A stretch of DNA of 64,000 bases from a bacterium (GCA_035945995.1 DASYZR010000044.1:1-64000), one strand, 5' to 3'; shown: positions 26,439-38,651, counted from the first letter of the stretch. Translations and numbers: made by a program. Notes: generated by a model not told the origin, from the letters alone.

Positions 26439-27272
26439 ATGGAACCAGGGGTAACCGTGCCGCGCGACGAGCGGTCCGCGGGGCGGTGGATGGGTGCGTT
26501 GATTCTGTTCATCCTCGCCGCGGGCGTCGTCTCGTTCATCGTCGCGGCGCACATCTGGTGGCTGCAGCCGCTCGCGTCGCGACAGGGCCTCTTCGCCGAC
26601 GAGATGTTCGACGCCATTCTCGTCGCCACCGGCATTGCGTTCATCGCCGTGCACCTCTTCGTCGCGATCGCGCTGATCCGGTACGCGGCGCACGGCCGCC
26701 GGCCCGCCGCGCACTGGCACGAGCACCTCGGCGCGGAGCTCACGTGGACGCTCGTCCCCGCGGCGGGGCTCATCGTCCTGGCCATCTTCGCGGAGATCGT
26801 CTGGGCGCACGTGTACAGCGCCCCGCCCGCCAACGCGCAGGTGGTGGAAGTGACGGCCCGGCAGTTCCTCTGGTACGTCCGGTACCCGGGCCCGGACGGC
26901 AAGCTGGCGCGCACGGATCCGAAGTTCATCAGCGCCGGGAACCCGCTCGGCCTCGATCCGGGCGACGCGGACAGCAAGACGAACCTCGTCCTCACGAACG
27001 ACCTGCACGTGGTGAACAATCGCCCGGTGCGCGTCGTCATCCATTCCCTCGACGTGATCCACAGCTTCTTCCTGCCGAACTTCCGCGTGAAGCAGGACGC
27101 GGTGCCCGGCCGGACGGAGTCGGTGTGGTTTACGCCGGACCGCACCGGCACGTTCCAGATCGCGTGCGCGCAGCTCTGCGGCGTCGGCCACTATACGATG
27201 CGTGGTAACATCGTGGTGGAACCCACCCAGGCCGCGTTCGACGCCTGGCTGGCGACACAGGGCACACACTAG
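26439..27272 (+). CDS. coxB: Haem-copper oxidase subunit II
   Basis: A 277-residue subunit carrying the CuA centre that takes electrons from the donor protein. Two N-terminal membrane helices (ALILFILAAGVVSFIVAAHI; ATGIAFIAVHLFVAIALIRY) and a further hydrophobic segment precede the periplasmic cupredoxin domain with FLWYVRYPGPDG, VIHSFFLPNFRVKQDAVPG and the CuA loop CAQLCGVGHYTM. Ligands Cys243, Cys247, His251 and Met254 are all present. No fused cytochrome c domain is seen, in keeping with a copper-protein donor. It is followed by coxA after 67 bp. Confidence 0.95.
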   Translation: MEPGVTVPRDERSAGRWMGALILFILAAGVVSFIVAAHIWWLQPLASRQGLFADEMFDAILVATGIAFIAVHLFVAIALIRYAAHGRRPAAHWHEHLGAELTWTLVPAAGLIVLAIFAEIVWAHVYSAPPANAQVVEVTARQFLWYVRYPGPDGKLARTDPKFISAGNPLGLDPGDADSKTNLVLTNDLHVVNNRPVRVVIHSLDVIHSFFLPNFRVKQDAVPGRTESVWFTPDRTGTFQIACAQLCGVGHYTMRGNIVVEPTQAAFDAWLATQGTH

Positions 27273-27339
27273 TGCCGTCCCGCGCTCTGCGCCGGGGTCC
27301 AACGCAGCGAATCAACTTGATGTCAAGGAGTCGCGCCTG

Positions 27340-29106
27340 ATGGATGCGCTTGCGGTGCACGAAGGGGCTGCCGCCCACGAGGCCCACGCCGAGAGCTTCG
27401 TCCGCCATTACATCTTCAGCCTCGACCACAAGATGATCGGCAAGCAATACTACTTCACGACGCTGTTCATGGCGCTCATCGGCGGCGCGCTCGCGATGCT
27501 GATGCGGCGGCATCTCGGGTGGCCCGAGCAGGGCACCCTGGATCCCGGCCAGTACCTGGCCGCGGCGACGATGCACGGCACCATCATGATTTTCTTCTTC
27601 CTGACGTCCATTCTGACCGGAGCGTTCGGCAACTTCCTGATCCCGCTCATGATCGGCGCCCGGGACATGGCCTTCCCGTTTCTCAACATGGTGTCGTTCT
27701 GGACGCTGGTGCCCGGCGTGCTCGTGCTGCTCTCGTCCTTTTTCGTCCCCGGCGGCCCCGCCGGCGACGGCTGGACGTCGTACGCGCCGCTGTCGGCGGT
27801 CTCCAAGTTCTCGCCGGGGTCCGGGCTCGGCCAGACGCTGTGGGCCATCTCGATTCTGTTCGTGCTGTTCTCGTCGTTGTTCGGCTCGCTCAACTTCCTG
27901 ACCACGATCATCAACATGCGGGCGCGCGGGTTGTCGATGGGCCGGATCCCGCTCACGCTGTGGGGCATCTTCATCACCGCGATCCTGGCGCTCTTGTCGT
28001 TTCCGGTGCTGACCGCGGCCATCGTGATGCTCATCCTCGACCGCACGGCCGGCACGAGCTTCTTCGTCCCGCCGAACCTGCTGGTCGCGGGACAGGTGCT
28101 CGGCGGCAAGAACGGGGACGCGCTGTTGTGGCAGCACCTGTTCTGGTTCTTCGGCCATCCGGAGGTCTACATCCTGATCCTCACGCCGATGGGCATCGTC
28201 TCCGACGTCATCTCGACCTTCTCGCGCAAGCCGATCTTCGGCTACAAGGCGATGGTGCTGTCGCTCTCGGCGATCGGATTTCTGAGCTTTCTCGTGTGGG
28301 GCCACCACATGTTCGTGAGCGGCATGTCGCCGCTGCTCGGCGCGGCCTTCATCGGATCGACGATCGCGATCGCGGTACCGTCCGCGATCAAGACGTTCAA
28401 CTGGTGCACGACGCTGTGGCAAGGCCGGCTGCACTTCACGTCCGCGATGCTGTTTGCGATCGCGTTCGTGTCGCTGTTCGTCACCGGCGGCCTCAGCGGG
28501 ATCTTCCTCGCGACCGCGCCGGTCGACATCTACCTGCACGACACGTACTTCGTGATCGCGCACTTCCATTTCGTCATGGCCGCGGCCGCGCTGTTCTCGA
28601 TCTTCGCCGGCACCTACTATTGGTTTCCCAAGCTGTTCGGCCGGATGATGGACGAGCGGCTCGGCAAAATCCACTTCGTGTTCACGTTCCTCGGCATCTA
28701 CATGACGTTCTTCCCGATGCACTTCCTCGGGTTCATGGGGAACAGCCGCCGGCTCTACAGCACCGCGGCCTACCCGTTCCTCGACCGCGCGGGGCCGATC
28801 GACATCTTCATCTCCCTGAGCGCGTTCATGCTGGGGGCGGCGCAGGTCGTCTTCATCTACAACTTCTTCAAGAGCCTGCTCCATGGGCCGGTCGCGGAGC
28901 AGAATCCGTGGCACGCCAACTCGCTCGAATGGGCGGCGCCGTCGCCGCCGCCGCACGGCAACTGGGGGCCGTCCCTGCCGGTCGTCTACCGCTGGCCGTA
29001 TGATTACTCGGTGCCGGACGCGCCGGCGGACTACAGCCCGATGTGGCAGGCGGACCCGGTGCCGGCGGGCGGCGCGTCCCCTGCGGGGGACGGCGGCGGG
29101 GAGTAG
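27340..29106 (+). CDS. coxA: Haem-copper oxidase subunit I (A-type)
   Basis: The 588-residue catalytic subunit holds a low-spin haem and the haem-CuB centre where oxygen is reduced. The signature FFGHPEVYILILTPMG is present, with His273 (CuB ligand), Glu275 (D-channel proton donor) and Tyr277 (His-Tyr cross-link), so the enzyme is A-type. Other conserved parts are MHGTIMIFFFLTSILTGAFG, GHHMFVSGMSP, and HDTYFVIAHFHFVMAAAALF with the haem-ligand histidines. AAGGAG lies 9 nt before the ATG at 27340. The last 60 residues are a hydrophilic Pro/Gly-rich tail. The next gene starts 9 bp after its stop. Confidence 0.97.
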   Translation: MDALAVHEGAAAHEAHAESFVRHYIFSLDHKMIGKQYYFTTLFMALIGGALAMLMRRHLGWPEQGTLDPGQYLAAATMHGTIMIFFFLTSILTGAFGNFLIPLMIGARDMAFPFLNMVSFWTLVPGVLVLLSSFFVPGGPAGDGWTSYAPLSAVSKFSPGSGLGQTLWAISILFVLFSSLFGSLNFLTTIINMRARGLSMGRIPLTLWGIFITAILALLSFPVLTAAIVMLILDRTAGTSFFVPPNLLVAGQVLGGKNGDALLWQHLFWFFGHPEVYILILTPMGIVSDVISTFSRKPIFGYKAMVLSLSAIGFLSFLVWGHHMFVSGMSPLLGAAFIGSTIAIAVPSAIKTFNWCTTLWQGRLHFTSAMLFAIAFVSLFVTGGLSGIFLATAPVDIYLHDTYFVIAHFHFVMAAAALFSIFAGTYYWFPKLFGRMMDERLGKIHFVFTFLGIYMTFFPMHFLGFMGNSRRLYSTAAYPFLDRAGPIDIFISLSAFMLGAAQVVFIYNFFKSLLHGPVAEQNPWHANSLEWAAPSPPPHGNWGPSLPVVYRWPYDYSVPDAPADYSPMWQADPVPAGGASPAGDGGGE

Positions 29107-29115
29107 GTGGACGCG

Positions 29116-29763
29116 ATGACGACGCAGGCCCTGAGGACGCGCCCGGCATCGGCCGGACGCGGAACGGCCGGCGTTCGCCGGGGCCTCGGCCCGGCCGGCC
29201 GCGGCGCGGAGCCGGCTGCCGCCGGGCCCGCGGTCAGCACCGCGGTGATCGGCGTGGCCGCCGCCCTGGCCGCCGTGGCCATGCTCTTTATCGCCTTCAC
29301 GACGGCCTATCTCGCGCGGCGGCAGGAGCCCGGATGGGGGACTATCGGCATGCCGCCGATCCTCTGGCTGACGACGGCGATCCTCCTCGCCAGCAGCGGC
29401 ACGCTCGAGTGGGCGCGCCGCCGGATCGCGGCCGGCGATATCCGGGGTCTGCAGCGCGGGCTCTCGGTCACGGCCGGGCTTGGCGGCGCCTTTCTCGCCG
29501 GCCAGCTCATCGCGTGGCGCTCGCTCGCGGCGCAGGGCGCCTACATCTCGAGCAATCCGCACAGCGCCTTCTTCTACATGTTGACCGGTGCCCACGGCGC
29601 GCACCTGCTCGGGGGACTGGGAGCACTCGGGATCATCTTGTGGAAGGCGTACGCCGGCCGGTACGGCGTGGCCTCGTACGCGGGGGTGAACGTCTTCGCG
29701 CTCTACTGGCACTTCATGGACCTGCTGTGGCTCTATCTCTTCGCCCTGCTCTTTATCGCGTGA
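29116..29763 (+). CDS. coxC: Haem-copper oxidase subunit III, copy 1
   Basis: A 215-residue membrane protein of the COX3/CyoC family. After an Arg/Gly/Ala-rich cytoplasmic N-terminus it has five predicted helices, including VIGVAAALAAVAMLFIAFTT, LSVTAGLGGAFLAGQLIAWR and FALYWHFMDLLWLYLFALLF. The motif FFYMLTGAHGAHLLGGLGAL is typical of subunit III. The ATG at 29116 is preferred over a GTG at 29107 because AGGTGG lies in front of it. It is followed after 21 bp by a second, diverged subunit III gene. Confidence 0.85.
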   Translation: MTTQALRTRPASAGRGTAGVRRGLGPAGRGAEPAAAGPAVSTAVIGVAAALAAVAMLFIAFTTAYLARRQEPGWGTIGMPPILWLTTAILLASSGTLEWARRRIAAGDIRGLQRGLSVTAGLGGAFLAGQLIAWRSLAAQGAYISSNPHSAFFYMLTGAHGAHLLGGLGALGIILWKAYAGRYGVASYAGVNVFALYWHFMDLLWLYLFALLFIA

Positions 29764-29784
29764 CGGCGGCAGCGGGAGGCGGGG

Positions 29785-30408
29785 ATGGCGGCAACTGAGA
29801 CCCGGAAGGAACCGGGCGCCCTGGCGGCGCGCTGGGGCGGCGGACGGTCGCCGTGGGACGTCAGCTGGGGCAAGCTGATGATGTGGCTGTTTCTGGCCTC
29901 GGACGCGATGACGTTCGCGGGCCTCCTCGTCGCGCTCTGGGCGGCCCGCTTCAGCGCGCCGGCCTGGCCCCATCGGGCGGAGATCTTCAACATCCGGCTC
30001 GTCGCCGGCATGACCGCCATCCTGATCTTCAGCAGCACCACGATGGCCCTGTCGGTCTTCATGATGCGCCGCCGGCAGCGTCCTCCGGCGGTGCGGTTCC
30101 TCACGGCGACCGTGATCGCGGGCGCGGTCTTCGTCGGCCTCCAGGCCTTCGAGTGGTCGCACCTCATCGCCGACGGCGCCGGGCTCGCCGGCAACCCCTG
30201 GGGCGTGGCTTCGTTCAGCTTCACCTTCTTTACCATTACGGGCCTGCACGGCCTGCACGTCCTGGGCGGCGTCATCTACCTCTGGGCGATGGCGGTGAAA
30301 ATCGCCAAGGGCGGGTCCTCCGAAGACGGCCTGGAGATCGCGGGACTCTACTGGGGATTCGTCGACCTCGTCTGGGTCTTCATCTGGCCGTCAATCTATT
30401 TGTTATAA
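29785..30408 (+). CDS. Haem-copper oxidase subunit III, copy 2
   Basis: A 207-residue COX3-family protein with five predicted helices. It contains KLMMWLFLASDAMTFAGLLV, FTFFTITGLHGLHVLGGVIY and the C-terminal GLYWGFVDLVWVFIWPSIYL. It shares the fold and the GxHGxHxLGG motif with the preceding gene but little else, so the pair is an old duplication or two distinct subunit types (a COX3 plus a CyoC-like partner). Tandem subunit III genes of this kind occur in several bacterial oxidase operons. Gap to the previous gene is 21 bp, to the next 37 bp. Confidence 0.88.
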   Translation: MAATETRKEPGALAARWGGGRSPWDVSWGKLMMWLFLASDAMTFAGLLVALWAARFSAPAWPHRAEIFNIRLVAGMTAILIFSSTTMALSVFMMRRRQRPPAVRFLTATVIAGAVFVGLQAFEWSHLIADGAGLAGNPWGVASFSFTFFTITGLHGLHVLGGVIYLWAMAVKIAKGGSSEDGLEIAGLYWGFVDLVWVFIWPSIYLL

Positions 30409-30445
30409 GCGTATTGACCAACACGTTTTGATAGGAGGCCGACCG

Positions 30446-30796
30446 ATGAGCGATCCGCACGCGGGCCATGGGGCGCCGGACGACGCCGCAGGCGTGCACG
30501 CCGTGCCGCTTCCCGAAGGGGTGACGCGGAGCTATGTGATGGCCTTCATCCTCCTCCTCGTCCTGACGGCCATCGAGGCGAGCACCGTGCTCGTCTTCAG
30601 CCTGCCGGCCGCCGTCCGGGTCACCGTGTTGCTCATCTCCGCCTCGATCAAGGCCCTCCTGATCGGCGCCTACTACATGAACCTCAAGTTCGAGCGGGTG
30701 GCCATGGTGGGTATCGCCGTGTCCCCGCTGCTGCTCGCCGTCCTGATGTTCTTCATGATCGCCCCGGACGCCGCCCAGCGGCTGGGGGTGCGTTGA
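30446..30796 (+). CDS. Cytochrome c oxidase subunit IV-like protein
   Basis: A 116-residue protein with a His/Gly-rich start (MSDPHAGHGAPDDAAGVHAV) and three predicted membrane helices: SYVMAFILLLVLTAIEASTV; AVRVTVLLISASIKALLIGA followed by YYMNLKFE; and MVGIAVSPLLLAVLMFFMIA. The IKALLIGAYYMNLKFE pattern marks the CyoD/CtaF (prokaryotic subunit IV) family, which helps assemble or stabilise subunit I. It follows AGGAGG and closes the oxidase operon. The next frame, a decayed cNMP-binding fragment, starts right after its stop. Confidence 0.88.
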   Translation: MSDPHAGHGAPDDAAGVHAVPLPEGVTRSYVMAFILLLVLTAIEASTVLVFSLPAAVRVTVLLISASIKALLIGAYYMNLKFERVAMVGIAVSPLLLAVLMFFMIAPDAAQRLGVR

Positions 30797-30810
30797 CAGA
30801 ATCGCACCGT

Positions 30811-30912
30811 GTGACCGGCGGCGAGATGTTCGTCATCGTCGAGGGGGAGGCCGCGGTGAGGACGCCGTCGGGCGGACCGCCGTCCTCGGGGCCGGGGACC
30901 AGCGGCACGTAG
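30811..30912 (+). pseudogene. Fragment of a cyclic-nucleotide-binding domain
   Basis: The frame reads VTGGEMFVIVEGEAAVRTPS and then GGPPSSGPGTSGT before a stop. GGEMFVIVEGEAAVR matches one strand-turn-strand of the cNMP-binding domain, equivalent to GRELFIIVDGRARV in the intact gene that follows and GHGFYLIIDGRAEV in the one after. The parts before and after are missing (no domain start, no phosphate-binding cassette). It therefore looks like a remnant of a third cNMP-binding gene. A TTG at 30793 could start the frame but does not restore the domain. Confidence 0.5.
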
Positions 30913-31021
30913 CATCGGCCCCACTTAGGGGGGCCGGGCTCCTCCCTCTCGTCTGCCGCGCGTGAGAGGAATGGCCGCCGGCGCAATGAATGTACAGCCG
31001 GAACCGAGGGGGGATGCGCGC

Positions 31022-31453
31022 ATGACGTTGCGGCGGGCCTCATCCAAGGTCGCGGTGTTGGAAAAACTTCCGTTGTTCGCGGGGCTCTCCCAAAAGGACC
31101 TGGAGCAGGTGTCCCGGCTGGCGAAGGAGGTCGACGTCCCGGCCGGACAACAGATCGCGGCGGCGGGTGAGGCCGGTCGCGAGCTGTTCATCATCGTGGA
31201 CGGGCGGGCGCGGGTGACGACCAAACAAGGCCGCACCATCCATTTGGGCCCGGGCGACGCGTTCGGCGAGATGAGTCTCATCGACGGCGAACCCCGGTCG
31301 GCCGACGTGCGGGCAGCCACGGCGATGCGGCTCCTGGCGGTTGGATACCGGGAGTTCTGGCAACTGATGGACGACTATCTGCCGATTGTCCGCAAGATCA
31401 CGCGTGCACTCGCCCGGCGTCTGAGGGACGCGGAAAGATCACCCCTGGCCTAA
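31022..31453 (+). CDS. Stand-alone cyclic-nucleotide-binding domain protein
   Basis: A 143-residue protein that is almost entirely a CRP-type cNMP-binding domain: VLEKLPLFAGLSQKDLEQVS, AGQQIAAAGEAGRELFIIVD, then the phosphate-binding cassette LGPGDAFGEMSLIDGEPRSA with the conserved Glu and Arg. The C-terminal helix is IVRKITRALARRLRDAE. No helix-turn-helix follows, so it is not a classical CRP/FNR transcription factor. It may sense cAMP/cGMP and act on a partner protein. The start was placed at the ATG at 31022; an upstream ATG at 30962 adds 20 unconserved residues. It is convergent with a second such gene and close to two cyclase genes. Confidence 0.85.
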   Translation: MTLRRASSKVAVLEKLPLFAGLSQKDLEQVSRLAKEVDVPAGQQIAAAGEAGRELFIIVDGRARVTTKQGRTIHLGPGDAFGEMSLIDGEPRSADVRAATAMRLLAVGYREFWQLMDDYLPIVRKITRALARRLRDAERSPLA

Positions 31454-31487
31454 GGAGCGTCGGCGGGCCACTCGGCCCGCGGGCCTG

Positions 31488-31898
31488 CTAGCGGGTACCG
31501 TCGTCGTCCTGAAGACGATTGGCCACGGTCTCCAAGAGGCGGATCGCGATGCTCGGATTCGAGACCACGATCCCCTTGAAGTCCCACCGCGTCAGGGCCA
31601 GGCACGTCGTCGGATCCTTCGCCACGACCGTCGCGGTGCGGGGCGTTTCGCGGATCAGGGCCAGTTCACCAAAATATTCGCCCGGACCGAGGGTGGCGAT
31701 CGTGCGGTCCCCTCGTTTGACCTCGGCCCGTCCATCGATGATCAGGTAGAACCCGTGGCCCGGCTCCCCGACCGACACAATCGTAGTACCGGCGTCGAAC
31801 CGCCGCTCCTTCGCGCTGTCGGCGATACGCCGCAGGTCGGCGTCCGAGACTCCCTCGAACAACGGGACCTTCTTGAGTTGCTCCGCGTGGCCGGCCAC
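31488..31898 (-). CDS. Stand-alone cyclic-nucleotide-binding domain protein
   Basis: A 136-residue cNMP-binding domain with the pattern LKKVPLFEGVSDADLRRIAD, FYLIIDGRAEVKRGDRTIAT and cassette LGPGEYFGELALIRETPRTA, retaining the cyclic-phosphate-binding Glu and Arg. A short C-terminal helix (IRLLETVANRLQDDD) ends the protein with no DNA-binding domain. It is similar in build to the convergent neighbour 35 bp away, suggesting duplication. The 166 bp between this gene and the cyclase gene at 32065 hold no recognisable gene and must contain both divergent promoters. Confidence 0.85.
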   Translation of the reverse strand: MAGHAEQLKKVPLFEGVSDADLRRIADSAKERRFDAGTTIVSVGEPGHGFYLIIDGRAEVKRGDRTIATLGPGEYFGELALIRETPRTATVVAKDPTTCLALTRWDFKGIVVSNPSIAIRLLETVANRLQDDDGTR

Positions 31899-32064
31899 GA
31901 TGCTCCTCCCTTGCGTTCGGATCCGACGGTCGAGGCGTTACCTGACAGCAGGTCCGGGTGTTTGCTGACGCGCGTGAGGATTCCTCCTCGCATGGCGTTT
32001 GTCTTCGCGGTGGCGGGAATCCGCCGGAAGGTGGTAGCCGCAGGCTACGACGAACACCGCCGGT

Positions 32065-35000
32065 GTGAGTGAGGAACGACGGATCGTGACAGTCCTATTC
32101 GCCGACGTGACCGGCTCGACGGCGCTGGGCGAGTCGATGGATCCCGAGGACACCCGCGCACTGCTGGGACACTACTATGCCATCGCCAAGGAGGTCGTCG
32201 CGGCCCACGGCGGTAGCCTGGAGAAGTTCATCGGCGACGCTGTGATGGCCGTGTTCGGTTTGCCCCGCGCCCACGGAGACGACGCGCGCAGGGCGCTCTC
32301 CGCGGCGCTCGAGCTCCGCGACCGCGTCCGCGCCGATCCCGACCTCGGAGAGCAGATTCCCATCCGTATCGGCGTGAACACCGGCGAGGTCGTCGCCTCA
32401 CGCGACCGGTCCGCCGGCGATTTCCTCGTCACCGGCGACGCAGTCAACGTCGCCGCCAGGCTGCAGCAAGCCGCGGAGCCGTGGACCATCCTGTGCGGCG
32501 AGCGGACGGCGCATGCGGCCGGGGTCTTGTTTGCGCTCGGCCCCTGGATCGCCGTCGAGGCCAAGGGAAAGCGCGCCCCGATCCGGGCCGCGCTCTTGCT
32601 CGATCGATCGAGCGCGGCGGTGGCGGCACAAACGCCGCTCATCGGCCGGGCCGATGATCTCTCGCAGCTCGAACTCATCGCTCGCCGGGCATTTGGGGAA
32701 CGGCGGCCCTTCCTCGTAAGCCTCATCGCCCCGGCGGGCACCGGGAAAACCCGGCTGCTGGAAGAGTTCCTCGAGCGCCTCCCCCGCGTCGCCCCCGGCG
32801 CCGCGGTAGCCATCGCCCAGTGTCTGCCCTACGGTCAGCGTCTCACCTACTGGCCTCTACGCGCCGTCCTCTGTCGTCTAGTCGGCGTCGAAGAAGAGGG
32901 AGAGCCCGGGGCCATCCGAGAGGCAGTCCGCGTCTGGCTCCGCGCCCATGGGAGCGCGCAGCCAGACCGCACCGGCGACCTACTCGCGGCCACGGTCGGT
33001 TTTGGGGATTCCGAGATCGCCGACCGCGCCGCCCTACTGGCCGCGTGGCGCACTACTGTTGAGGTTGCATCGCGACGGGCGCCGCTTGTGCTCGTCTTCG
33101 AGGACCTGCACTGGTCGAGTGACAGCCTCCTCGACCTCGTCGAGTTTGTCATGCAACCGCGGGGGGAAGCCGCCGTCATGATGATCGCTCTCACGCGGCC
33201 TGAGCTGCTCGAGCGGCGGCCCGCGTGGGGCGGCGGGCGGCGCAACTACGTCTCGCTCGCCCTCGAGCCCTTGCGCGATACGGAGGTCGGACGGCTCGTC
33301 CAGTATCTGCTGCCGGCGCCTTCCCCCGAGGTCGTCGCGAGAATCGTCACCCGTGCCGAGGGTAACCCGTTCTACGCCGGGGAGCTCGTCCGGTCGCTGA
33401 TCGACCGGGTTGGACCCTCTGGCGACGGCGCCGCCGTCGACCTGGCGCTCGCGACGCTGCCGGACACCGTCCAGGCGACGGTGCTGGCACGGCTCGACTT
33501 GCTGCCACCCGACGAGCGCCGGACCCTACAGCTAGGGGCCGTCTTCGGCCGGGCCTTCCGGTCGGACGGCGTCGCCGCGCTCGGCCCCGAGTTGACTGCG
33601 GACATCGACCGGTTGATCGACGCGCTGCTTGCCAAAGATCTCGTGCGCCACGGCGGCGCGGACGATGTGACCTTCCGCCACATCCTGATCCGGGAGGTCG
33701 CCTACCAGACGCTGCCTCGGTCCGAGCGCGCGGGCCTCCACGGCGCCGCGGCTGCCTGGCTCGAGGCGCGCGCCCGAAGCCGGGAGGACGCTCTCGCGGA
33801 GCTCATCGCCTACCATTACCGGGAGGCGGCCTCTCTCGCGCGCGGTCATGGCGTGGAGTCGGCCGCCGTCGGACGGACCCGGCAGAAAGCCGCCCACTGG
33901 CTGGCCCGCGCGGCCGCCATCGCGGCCGCGGGCGCAGCCACGGTGGAAGCCGCCCGGCACCTGCGGAACGCGATCGAGTTCGCCGACCCCGCCGATCTTC
34001 CCGAACTGTACGAGCGACTGGGCACCGAGGAACTCGGCTGGAACAGCGCAACCGCGTACATGACAGCCCTTCGACTCTGCCGGGAGCAAGGTGCTCCCCC
34101 CGACCGGGAACTCCGCGTGCTCGCGAGGCTGCTCACCCAATACATGCGCTCGCAGGGGTCTATCGCCAACCGGCCGCCGGACGACGAGATGGCCCGGCTG
34201 TTCGCGGAGGGGGACGCCCTACTCCGGGCGGCGCAGGACGACCGAGCGGTCGCGCGCTTCCTGATCGCACGGGGCTTCCACGCCTTCTGGCGGCTCGGCA
34301 ATGTCACGCCCGACGACATCACGGAGTCGGAGATGAGCGGGCGTCGAGGCCTTGAGATTGCAGAACGGCTCGACGATGCGGATCTTCGAAGCGCGGCGCT
34401 CGATGCACTCTCGGGATGCGCACAACAGCGGGGGGACTGGACCCGCGCTCGTGAGTACGCCCGCCAGCGCCTGGCGCTGCAAGAGCGTCTCAGCCCTCTC
34501 GAGCGGATCGACGCTCATTCCATGGTCGCCTGGTCCTCGTCTCTGCTCGGCGATCTCGACGAGGTCATACGCATCTCCGCCTCAGGGCTTGCGCTGCTCC
34601 AGCCGGGGCAGGTGCCGGCATGGGCGCTCCACCTCGTCGTCTGGCGGACCTACGCGCTGACGCTGCGCGGCCTGTGGGACGACGCCCTTGCCGCGGGGGA
34701 CCGCGCCTACCAGTTGTGGATTGAAACCGGCCGTCCCTCCGCCGGGTACGCGCTCCGCGGCTTCGTCGCCGCGTTGGACGTCGCGCGGGCCCGCAAAAGC
34801 GATCAGCTTATCGATCGGTACCGGGACGCCCTGGCCGCGATCCTCCGTGACTTCACCTCCGCCACCGTATGGCGACGCATCGACGGGTTCGTGTCCGGCG
34901 ATCTCGACGTGGTGAAGACGCAGATGGTGGGTCGATTCGACTTTCAACACATGGGTCTCGAGTATCTCGAACGGGGGCTCTCGTTTGCCTCGGACAGGCG

Positions 35001-35298
35001 CCAGCCTCCGGCCGCCGAAGTCCTGAGGCCTATCGCCAAGTTTGCCGCCGCGCACGGCTACCGGGCGCTTGAAGGGCAGGCGCGCCGGGCGCTCGGAATC
35101 GCCCTTCAAGAGGCGGAGGAACTGGCCGCGGCCCTCGACCTCTTCGAACGGATGGGGGCGACGCCCTACGCGGCGCGGGCACGCTGTGAGCGGGCGCGCC
35201 TTACGGGCGACGAGGCCGGCCTCGCCGCCGGCATGCGGGTCCTGACCGAATTGGGAGATCTGGAGCACCTGGAGCGGATCGAGCATTCGCGGGCGTAG
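32065..35298 (+). CDS. Class III nucleotide cyclase-AAA ATPase-TPR protein, 1077 aa
   Basis: A large signalling protein in three parts. Residues 5-185 are a class III cyclase domain: metal-binding Asp14 (FADVTGSTA) and Asp58 (KFIGDAVMAVFG), Lys54 at the purine-recognition site, and Asn128 and Arg132 (GDAVNVAARLQ) for the transition state. The second purine-recognition position is Leu121 instead of the Asp of typical adenylate cyclases. Residues 190-500 are an AAA/STAND-type ATPase with PLIGR, Walker A APAGTGKT (223-229) and Walker B LVLVFEDLHW. The rest is helical repeats (TPR-like) for sensing or binding. GTG start. It is convergent with the second cyclase gene, 15 bp away. The product (cAMP or other) is not certain. 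Confidence 0.88.
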   Translation: MSEERRIVTVLFADVTGSTALGESMDPEDTRALLGHYYAIAKEVVAAHGGSLEKFIGDAVMAVFGLPRAHGDDARRALSAALELRDRVRADPDLGEQIPIRIGVNTGEVVASRDRSAGDFLVTGDAVNVAARLQQAAEPWTILCGERTAHAAGVLFALGPWIAVEAKGKRAPIRAALLLDRSSAAVAAQTPLIGRADDLSQLELIARRAFGERRPFLVSLIAPAGTGKTRLLEEFLERLPRVAPGAAVAIAQCLPYGQRLTYWPLRAVLCRLVGVEEEGEPGAIREAVRVWLRAHGSAQPDRTGDLLAATVGFGDSEIADRAALLAAWRTTVEVASRRAPLVLVFEDLHWSSDSLLDLVEFVMQPRGEAAVMMIALTRPELLERRPAWGGGRRNYVSLALEPLRDTEVGRLVQYLLPAPSPEVVARIVTRAEGNPFYAGELVRSLIDRVGPSGDGAAVDLALATLPDTVQATVLARLDLLPPDERRTLQLGAVFGRAFRSDGVAALGPELTADIDRLIDALLAKDLVRHGGADDVTFRHILIREVAYQTLPRSERAGLHGAAAAWLEARARSREDALAELIAYHYREAASLARGHGVESAAVGRTRQKAAHWLARAAAIAAAGAATVEAARHLRNAIEFADPADLPELYERLGTEELGWNSATAYMTALRLCREQGAPPDRELRVLARLLTQYMRSQGSIANRPPDDEMARLFAEGDALLRAAQDDRAVARFLIARGFHAFWRLGNVTPDDITESEMSGRRGLEIAERLDDADLRSAALDALSGCAQQRGDWTRAREYARQRLALQERLSPLERIDAHSMVAWSSSLLGDLDEVIRISASGLALLQPGQVPAWALHLVVWRTYALTLRGLWDDALAAGDRAYQLWIETGRPSAGYALRGFVAALDVARARKSDQLIDRYRDALAAILRDFTSATVWRRIDGFVSGDLDVVKTQMVGRFDFQHMGLEYLERGLSFASDRRQPPAAEVLRPIAKFAAAHGYRALEGQARRALGIALQEAEELAAALDLFERMGATPYAARARCERARLTGDEAGLAAGMRVLTELGDLEHLERIEHSRA

Positions 35299-35313
35299 AC
35301 CACCTCGGCTTCC

Positions 35314-38300
35314 CTAGGGGGTGAGCTCCTCCCACATCTCGACGATCGCGCGGTTCTCCGCCACATTCTCCAGGAACGCCCTGCGCCAATCAGGGTCACT
35401 GATCTCCGCGGCACGAGCCATCAGTTCGCGATGGCCGGCCTCGGCGGCTTTCCGGGCCCGGTCCGGTTCGTTGAGGGCATCGAAGACCTCCGCGCAACTT
35501 TGGTACACCCACACCGGAAAATACATCCCCCTGGTCCCGTGCGCCTCGAGATAGTCCCAGATGTCCGCGGCATATTGCCGCGCTTCGTCCAGGTGAGCCT
35601 GGGCCAAGGCGCAGCGAGCCAGGCCGGCCGAAACTTCAACGACGGCGGCACGCCCGCCGAGATCGGTAAAGATCCCTATCGCCTCCGCGAACCGCCGCGC
35701 CGCGCCAGCCGCGTCGCCGGATTGCTCGAGGACGAACCCGAGATAGGTGACCGCCCCCGCCCGACCGTACGCGTCGTTCACCGCCACCATCTCACCGAGC
35801 GATTGCTCGAGGACGCGGCGCGCGGTTCTCCCATCATGCAATCGAAAGCACGCGTACCCGAGATTCTGGAGAGCGTACGCTCTCGAACGGCGGGCGCCAA
35901 CCCCGCCGGCCAACTCCAGTGCCTGCTCCAGCGTCGTCCGAGCCAACTTGTACAATCCCAGTTGCCAGTAGTTCACGCCGGTGTTGACCAGGCCGCGGGC
36001 TTCCTGGGCGCGGTTGCCCAGACGATGCCAGATCTCCACTTCCTGGCGGTGCAAGACCAGCGCCTGCGCAACGTCCCCGGACTCGGTATAGTAGATAGCC
36101 ACGTTCGAAAGGGTGAGTGCGAGAGTCGTCTCATCACCCAGGTCATGCGCGCGGCGGAGCGCCTCCTCCGCCGTCTGCCCCGCGGCGTTGAGCTCGCCGA
36201 GGCGCGTTTGCGACGGCACCTTCAATGACAGAGCCCGTACCTCAATTGACGGATTACCTGCGCGCCGCGCGGCGGCGATAGCCTCATCCGCCGCCCGCAA
36301 CCCCGCTCGATGGTCACCGGTCTTGCGCGCATACTCGGCCTGGCGGTGATAGACTTCCGCCCGCCGGGCATCGTCGTCCAGACTCTCGGCGAGTTCCAGC
36401 AGCTCCGCCACGTCGACACGCCAAGCATCCGGCTCACCGAGAATCCCCAAGACCTCTTCGCGCGCGAGCAGCACCAGCCAGCGGCGCTCGCGGTCGACCG
36501 GCGGCAGCAGATCCAGCGCGCGATCCAGGAATTTCCTCGCCTCCACGGTGGCGCCGCGTGCCTTGGCGCGGCCGCCTGCCTGTAGATACCGGTCGGCCGC
36601 TGCCGTCATGTCACCCGCGCGCTCCGCGTGCTCGCCCAGCAGTCCCGCGAACTCGTCGAGCCGGCCGGCCCTCCGCGCCTGCTCTTCCAGCCATGCGGCG
36701 GCGGCCTTGTGCAACTTGGCGCGCTCACGCTTCAGCACGCTCTCATACGTCACGTCGCGCAGCAGCATGTGATGGAAGCTCCATTCCGTGTCGCCTTCAA
36801 AGGACGATTCCGGTTGCGCCTCCACGAAGCCGCGCGGCTGCAGCGGCGCGAGGAGCGCATCGGGCCGGCGCACCCCGAGGGCCTCCAGTCCTCCGGCCCA
36901 GAAGTTGCGGCCGAAAATCGCGCCCCGCTGCAGCGCAGCCCGTTCCGCGTCGTTCAGGACGCTGAGACGCGTGAACAACAGGTGCTGCAGCGTGGCCGGC
37001 AGCGGGGTTTCCCTGAGGCGCGCGGAGACAAAGCCCGACGGATCGCGCGTCCGATCGATGATGCCGCGGTCCAGGAACCAGTTCACCACCTCTTCCACGA
37101 AGTAGGGCACGCCCTCGCACCGCTCCACGATCAGGCGCACAACGTCTTCGGGAACGTGCTCGACGGCGCGCAGCAACTCGGACACAAGCTCCCGCGTAGC
37201 CTCGTCGGACAGCGGCTGAAGATCCGTCGACACATACCGGGGATGGCGAAGGAGTTCTTCCGGCGGCGTCCATTCCGGCCGCGCCGCGGCCAGCACAAAG
37301 GTTCCGTGCGCCCCCTCGTCGGACGGCGCGTCCGCGAGCAATACCTGCACGAGATACTCCCAGGACGACGCATCCGCCCATTGCAGATCCTCGAGCAGAA
37401 ACTCAACGGGCTGTTCCCGCCGGATCATCTTCAAAACCTCGCGGCTCACCACAAGGCCGCGTCCCTTGACCTGGACCGGATCGCCGCGCATCGCCCCGAT
37501 ATGCGGACTCTCGGCAAACGGCAGGCCGACCAACAGACCGAGCGCGTGTGCGGGTTCGACCGCGTCGGTCTTGCTTAGCTCCTGGAAGCGTTGCACCCAT
37601 TTGGCCTCGGCCTGGGGAATCGGCGCATCTTCGGCGATCTGGAACCGATCGAACCACATGCGGCGGACCAGCGAAAACGGCTGCCGCGGATCGTCGGCAT
37701 AGGCGCGGGCCCTGAACAGGCGCACGACCTCCGGTCGCAGCTCCACCCACTCGCGCACATCGTCGAGCAGGCGACTCTTCCCGATTCCGGCGTCTCCCAC
37801 AAGCTGCGCCCACACGAATCGCCGGTTCTCGACGGCGTCCAGGTAGGCGGCCTGGAGGGCCCGCAGTTCCCGGTCGCGGCCGATGGTCCGCGTTTGGACG
37901 CCCGCCACGCCCCGGGCGAGAGTGCGGAACGGCCTCGACTTGGCACGGCGTACGAGATAGGTCTGGATCGGCTCCGGCGCGCCTTTCACCACGAGCGGCG
38001 GCTGCGGCGTGACGGAAAACACCCCGCGCACATGCTGGTAGGTGTCGTGGGAAATGAGAATCCCGCCGGGAGGCGCGGCGGACTGCAGGCGCGCCGCCAC
38101 GTTCATCGCATCGCCCGTCGCGGTGAAACTCTCTTTTCGCATCCGAGCCCAACTCGCCGACCACGACGAGACCGGTGTGGATTCCCACTCGAATCTGAAT
38201 GGGAGGCGCCCCATTCCACGCCGCGATTGCGCTTTGCGCCTCGAGCGCTGCGAGAATCGCATGCTCCGGATCACGCTCGCCGGAGGCCTCGGCGCCGAAG

Positions 38301-38650
38301 AGGGCAAGGAGACCGTCGCCGAGATACTGGGCCACCATGCCGTGATGGCCCCGGATGATCGTCCCGATGGCGGAGTGCAATTTCGCAACCGTCTGCCGCC
38401 ATTCTTCGGGGTCGAGGTTGTGCGCGAGCGCGGTCGAGCCGACGATATCGGTAAAGAGGATCGTGATGACGCGGCGTTCTTCGAACGGCCCGGATTGGGC
38501 CGGGACCTCCGTCTCGAGCGCGGCAAGCTGTTGGCGGAGCGCTGCGAGCGCGGGATCGACGACGGCGGCGCCGAGCGTGGCGCGCTGCGTCTCCAAGACC
38601 GACATCGCGTGACGCACTTGCTCGAGCCGACGCTGCAGGGACTCCGTCAC
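35314..38650 (-). pseudogene. Class III cyclase-AAA ATPase-TPR protein, split by a +1 frameshift
   Basis: The N-terminal part (GTG at 38650) encodes a coiled region and a cyclase domain with Asp68 (FTDIVGSTA) and Asp112 (QYLGDGLLALFG) up to GELGSDAK. The continuation (ESFTATGDAMNVAARLQSAA, then HVRGVF, AAA domain GDAGIGKSRLL, LLEDLQWAD, and a TPR array to residue ~1110) lies one base out of phase. The switch falls at a run of four A (38134-38137). Omitting one A, or one T of the nearby TTT, gives an uninterrupted protein of 1111 residues. Both halves keep coding quality, so the change is recent, an assembly error, or programmed. It lies 1 bp after dgt. Confidence 0.8.
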
Positions 38651-38651
38651 G

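Follow-up and report, generated by a model that had tools for sequence, protein, structure and literature searches.

In this work we analysed a 64,000-nucleotide stretch of DNA (DASYZR010000044.1:1-64000, hereafter the window) from a soil bacterium that belongs to Sysuimicrobiota, an uncultured phylum (order Candidatus Sysuimicrobiales), the genome of which comprises 4.15 Mb in 181 contigs and is 98.8% complete. The window contains a block of 7,855 bp (30797..38651), located between the stop codons of coxD and of a dGTPase gene, which is a recently gained, genus-local insertion. This block carries two genes for class III nucleotide cyclases (cyclases 1 and 2), two genes for stand-alone proteins made of a cyclic nucleotide-binding domain (CNBD; receptors 1 and 2) and a CNBD remnant. 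With moderate confidence we propose that the insertion holds a STAND-type cyclase whose product would be read by CNBD proteins devoid of any output domain; a mobile cyclase combined with a modular family of output-less receptors is our best reading of the locus.

Cyclase 1 and the two stand-alone receptors

Cyclase 1 (32065..35298, + strand, 1077 AA) models as a class III cyclase domain followed by a STAND ATPase and a TPR sensor. The protein matches PF00211 (E 2.4e-20) and PF13191 (E 4e-16), and is composed, in this order, of a class III cyclase domain (AA 3–181), a STAND ATPase core with a winged-helix region (AA 195–550, P-loop motif APAGTGKT) and a TPR-like superhelix (AA 600–1077). Pfam recognizes no TPR in cyclase 1, and the TPR-like helices are seen in the AlphaFold2 model alone (mean pLDDT 85). 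In the PDB, Foldseek matches this model best, over 778 columns, to the TPR-sensor STAND ATPase 6mfv, in agreement with a preliminary description of this DNA that had called the enzyme STAND-like. The 6mfv protein (PMC6468293) agrees with the cyclase 1 model in fold and in the succession ATPase core, winged-helix region, TPR superhelix, but it differs from cyclase 1 at the N-terminus, where the effector of the latter is a class III cyclase domain. A second relationship, to the TOMM kinase/cyclase fusion family TIGR03903, is more limited: in cyclases 1 and 2, the profile aligns with about 550–610 residues of the cyclase and ATPase regions (E 8e-57 and 1.5e-53), but neither protein has the kinase domain, and membership was rejected with scores of 193 and 182 bits, respectively, against a cut-off of 705.75.

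The catalytic domain of cyclase 1 matches the solved guanylyl and adenylyl cyclases 2w01 and 3r5g. The metal-binding residues D14 and D58 and the transition-state residues N128 and R132 align to the solved cyclases and are kept in a 20-sequence alignment. K54 and D119 align to the Lys/Asp pair of the adenylyl cyclase CyaB (3r5g); in the guanylyl cyclase Cya2 (2w01), the Lys of this pair is replaced by Glu. Because the K54/D119 pair is canonical, the product of cyclase 1 is most likely cAMP. Comparison with a relative gives a rate of non-synonymous substitution (dN) of 0.34 and of synonymous substitution (dS) of 1.56, values indicative of purifying selection on an enzyme that looks functional.

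Receptor 1 (31022..31453, + strand; 143 AA counted from an ATG, 163 AA from a GTG) and receptor 2 (31488..31898, − strand, 136 AA) are encoded by convergent genes. PF00027 is the sole domain matched in either protein (E 2.3e-20 for receptor 1, scored on the longer frame, and 2.9e-21 for receptor 2), and the phosphate-binding cassette is complete in both, G82-E83...R92-S93 in receptor 1 and G77-E78...R87-T88 in receptor 2. The preliminary description had seen here two stand-alone cyclic nucleotide-binding proteins without an output domain, a view that these results bear out. Receptor 1 is a member of a family that we call cNBD1, in which the G, E, R and S of the cassette are identical across all aligned rows; receptor 2 is denoted cNBD2. 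In its structure model (mean pLDDT 72), receptor 1 has a CNBD fold that resembles solved structures, most closely the CNBD of the M. loti K1 channel. With dN 0.17 and dS 0.95 between receptor 1 and a same-genus copy, and dN 0.17 and dS 0.91 between receptor 2 and a relative, both receptors are under purifying selection and look functional.

CRP/FNR regulators have the same phosphate cassette as the receptors, but they also have a C-terminal helix–turn–helix, whereas no helix–turn–helix match was found in the receptors, both of which terminate at the C helix of the CNBD. The missing motif rules out a CRP/FNR transcription factor in either case. The receptors also differ from CRP in their putative base-reading residue, as the position of CRP Ser128 is occupied by an acidic residue in receptor 1 (E138), by Glu or Asp in all rows of the cNBD1 family, and by Asp in receptor 2. 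For this reason a CRP-like readout of cAMP by the receptors is doubtful. Channel and kinase CNBDs cap the base in another way than CRP. The base-reading residue is Glu146 in the cGMP receptor XC_0249 and Asn143 in the cUMP receptor PycTIR (PMC11224242). There is thus a mild tension between the acidic base-reading residue of the receptors and the adenylyl-type residues of cyclase 1.

Cyclases and CNBD genes in related genomes

The association of cyclases with CNBD genes was surveyed in 43 genomes of the order (designated G, with their loci designated L), which contain at least 123 CNBD genes and at least 95 cyclase domains. At least 21 CNBD genes have a class III cyclase at a distance of 5 kb or less, where 1.6 such genes would be expected, an approximately 13-fold excess; one of them, in G022, is apparently fused to the cyclase in a single frame, which leaves 20 separate genes. 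Among the genes listed for the cNBD1 family, 10 out of 25 are near a cyclase (0.31 expected), a count that becomes 11 out of 25 once the cyclase next to the G036 copy, which was not caught by the cyclase 1 query, is added. The family tree requires at least seven switches between cyclase-adjacent and non-adjacent positions. The cyclases found beside cNBD1 genes have four architectures, CHD-AAA_16-TPR (L090, L095, L091-L094), REC-CHD (L087, L088), CHD-NB-ARC-TPR (L106, where the NB-ARC label is our own reading rather than a profile match) and TPR-CHD (L111), and receptor–cyclase gaps of 0, 7, 68, 78 and 101 bp were found. The closest relatives of receptor 1 adjoin a REC-cyclase in G008 and G010, and lie about 6 kb from one in G001. 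From these gene neighbourhoods, cNBD1 appears to be a lineage-specific family that recurrently accompanies class III cyclases, irrespective of the sensor module they carry.

A comparable arrangement was observed in a genome of another phylum, G060, in which 22 nt separate the only detected class III cyclase gene (CHASE2-like) from the stand-alone CNBD gene downstream of it. At this locus (L239:6872-12141) the cyclase, a stand-alone CNBD, a transporter-like gene, a second stand-alone CNBD and a CRP-like gene follow in series, the CHASE2 and CRP labels being again our own reading and not profile matches.

The comparison of neighbourhoods proposed in the preliminary description thus brought to light a co-occurrence of cyclase and CNBD genes in relatives, and the association of cyclases with receptors is supported in general, but not for the exact set of genes present in the window. 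Close homologues of cyclase 1 are found mostly in metagenome-assembled genomes of soil Chloroflexi (49–65% identity), and none is found in the same-genus genomes, which makes a lateral gain of cyclase 1 likely. Copies of receptor 2 occur in G003, G010 and G008 (73, 70 and 68% identity, respectively), each convergent with a cNBD1-family gene. Since the relatives of the different partners occur apart, the island appears to consist of members of two receptor families joined with an incoming cyclase. Of the local cyclase–receptor system that had been proposed, the clustering is therefore recovered in relatives, but these particular partners are not conserved together.

Several observations weigh against our proposal. 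Around some 17 close relatives of cyclase 1 (49–65% identity for most), the flanks examined, several of which are short, contain no CNBD gene, and a six-frame search found none either; for these flanks, a conserved operon of cyclase 1 with a CNBD gene was consequently rejected. The closest relatives of receptor 2, in G003, G008 and G010, have no nearby cyclase. Many of the clustered pairs are orthologous, hence the observed counts are not counts of independent events, and the P values calculated for the clustering are too small. One of the two cyclases of the block is frameshifted. Finally, where CRP reads adenine, the receptors have Glu or Asp, so that their ligand may not match the product of cyclase 1.

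The insertion site and the other features of the block

In both same-genus genomes the coxD and dGTPase genes are adjacent and convergent, at a distance of 18 nt in G002 (L223) and about 60 nt in G001 (L224), and the flanking gene order is unchanged at these empty sites. The preliminary description mentioned neither the absence of the block from these genomes nor the dGTPase gene at its far edge. Across the family, the convergent coxD–dGTPase gap (30797-38651 in the window; L225-L232) is a variable insertion site, which is filled by other genes in G004, G005, G006, G007, G008 and G011. No convincing flanking repeat was found at the edges of the block and no tRNA within the window.

Upstream of the block lies the cox operon, coxB-coxA-ctaE-coxC-coxD (26457-30796), as the preliminary description had reported, and past cyclase 2 lie the dGTPase gene, 1 nt from the end of the block, and then ppdK, both on the minus strand. 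The same description had suggested a functional link with the oxidase. This idea rests on position: receptor 1 starts 225 bp past coxD on the same strand, with no terminator-like site in between (no sigma-70 or terminator match was found within 30700-32200). However, the cox operon exists without the block in the rest of the genus and unrelated genes occupy the same gap across the family; the gap being variable, closeness to the oxidase tells nothing of function. Given that the site is empty in G001 and G002 and holds differing genes elsewhere, we discarded oxidase regulation, and control of the neighbouring cytochrome oxidase by the block is extremely unlikely.

Within the block, receptor 2 and cyclase 1 are encoded divergently on either side of 166 bp (31899..32064), a possible shared promoter region in which only short inverted repeats were found, and the convergent cyclase 1 and cyclase 2 genes are 15 nt apart. 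Cyclase 2 (35314..38650, − strand) matches PF13191 (AAA_16, E 1.7e-12), TPR_12 (E 2.1e-16) and, in two frames, PF00211. Up to about 38135 the PF00211 match follows one frame, from 38139 it follows another, and a one-base shift within AAAAGAGAGTTTCACC (38122..38137, − strand) divides the catalytic domain, which extends from 38473 to 37951. As sequenced, cyclase 2 is probably non-functional. Either the gene decayed recently into a pseudogene or the 181-contig assembly contains an error at this point, and the best homologue, 32% identical, is too distant to decide between the two. The product of cyclase 2 could not be predicted even for an intact protein, because the Lys position of the substrate pair reads Gln. 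The two convergent cyclase-AAA-TPR proteins announced previously are therefore convergent indeed, and the domains stand for cyclase 1, with the TPR coming from the model, but cyclase 2 is not one open frame.

The decayed third CNBD that had been noticed at the coxD end of the block is real. This remnant (30814..30897, + strand, about 28 residues, GGEMFVIVEGEAAVRTPSG...) scores 16.2 bits against a local CNBD profile, whereas 1000 shuffles of its residues reached 2.2 bits at best. As its source we considered, and rejected, a CRP-like pseudogene on contig 51, the translation of which bears no clear resemblance to the cNBD1 family.

Proposed mechanism, alternatives and known systems

The pathway that we infer would lead from an inducer, sensed by the TPR superhelix of cyclase 1, to an opening and oligomerization of the ATPase core, which would join the cyclase domains and allow synthesis of a cyclic nucleotide, most likely cAMP. 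The stand-alone CNBD proteins would read this product and, because they have no output domain, would have to bind a partner protein or sequester the nucleotide in order to act. The leading candidates for a target would be the cyclase itself or a CNBD-fused transporter encoded elsewhere in the genome. In G001, G003 and G006, genes of the cNBD1 family flank those for CNBD-fused proteins of the Na/sulfate symporter family. A CNBD-transporter gene with such receptor genes beside it is found at L089:8238-10809, L106:6881-9347 and L098:3100-7849, an arrangement that suggests that the CNBD-fused transporter is a partner of the receptors. In the genome studied here, contig 51 (L102:8426-13525) carries on one strand a histidine kinase (HAMP-GAF), a receiver protein, a REC-cyclase and a fusion of a CNBD with a Na/sulfate symporter-family protein, a row of genes readable as a putative kinase-to-cyclase-to-transporter operon.

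Two further arrangements of CNBDs were observed. In a clade of stand-alone CNBDs (L096:13597-15497; L097, L115, L116, L118) the Arg of the cassette is lost, PP replacing PR, and each gene adjoins a gene for a protein of about 500 AA, which in L096 is a Pyr_redox_3 oxidoreductase whose gene overlaps the CNBD gene; these proteins may no longer bind a cyclic nucleotide. In L119:1979-7633 and L243:419-6107, an AAA-type cyclase has neighbouring genes for CNBD fusion proteins; the fusion partners, assigned in L119 alone, are an RnfD-like membrane domain and a pyridoxamine-phosphate-oxidase domain.

The block could also be a chance assembly at a variable site, its genes having been gained separately with transferability as their common trait, and the receptors serving other cyclases of the genome. 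We regard this as a real possibility, if a rather unlikely one. The genes that occupy the gap do differ in six other genomes of the family, cyclase 1 homologues are found apart from the closest kin of receptor 2, and the host genome has five further loci with class III cyclases, but the excess of CNBD genes near cyclases in the order speaks against chance, as do the REC-cyclases that adjoin receptor 1's own subfamily in G008 and G010. That the receptors are nucleotide buffers or sinks, which would damp the signal without any protein target, is improbable; a single domain with an intact cassette and no output would suit this role, and an abundant cAMP-binding protein exists in Mycobacterium tuberculosis, the universal stress protein Rv1636, which has another fold (PMC11107214), yet a distinct conserved family paired with many kinds of cyclases seems more than a sink needs.

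Less probable still is a Pycsar-like anti-phage system, in which infection would induce synthesis of a cyclic nucleotide and the CNBD proteins would trigger defence. The Pycsar systems (PycC with PycTIR or PycTM; PMC11224242) likewise combine a class III cyclase fold with CNBD proteins, the PADLOC profiles for PycC and PycTIR find matches in the cyclase and CNBD domains of the block, Avs phage sensors are among the STAND ATPases with repeat sensors (fold match 8dgc, E 2.4e-9), and the block occupies a variable site. However, the PADLOC matches are limited to generic cyclase and CNBD domains, cyclase 1 keeps the Lys/Asp pair of adenylyl cyclases, of purine type, and the neighbours of family members in relatives resemble ordinary metabolic or transport genes. 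Pycsar membership was rejected because the receptors match PF00027 only, with no TIR or transmembrane effector.

The closest parallel to the proposed cyclase–receptor system is the cGMP pathway of Xanthomonas campestris, in which the TPR class III cyclase XC_0250 is encoded beside XC_0249, a CNBD protein that reads its product and has a base-reading Glu, like receptor 1 (PMC3770947). Unlike the bare domains described here, XC_0249 has a GGDEF output, and XC_0250 was published without a STAND ATPase core. Each component of the block is thus of a known kind, and what is unmatched is the repeated pairing of one stand-alone receptor family, specific to this lineage, with class III cyclases that differ in their sensors; this pairing is not described in the open-licence papers searched, in which no report on such signalling in this uncultured soil phylum was found either. 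A more general and more tentative proposal, which we consider doubtful at this stage, is that cNBD1 is a detachable receptor subunit common to cyclases with different sensors (STAND-TPR, receiver, NB-ARC-TPR, TPR), which would feed back on the cyclase or gate a CNBD-fused transporter, so that the input would be swapped while the reader stays constant, and the acidic base-reading residue would confer a ligand preference unlike that of CRP.

In most of the bacterial cyclic nucleotide receptors that are understood, the protein also contains the output, in the form of a DNA-binding, enzymatic or channel domain. A family of output-less receptors statistically tied to class III cyclases would mean that part of bacterial cAMP/cGMP signalling goes through protein contacts that are still unmapped, and the cNBD1 family offers, in an uncultured soil phylum, concrete receptor–cyclase pairs, some of them encoded by directly adjoining genes.

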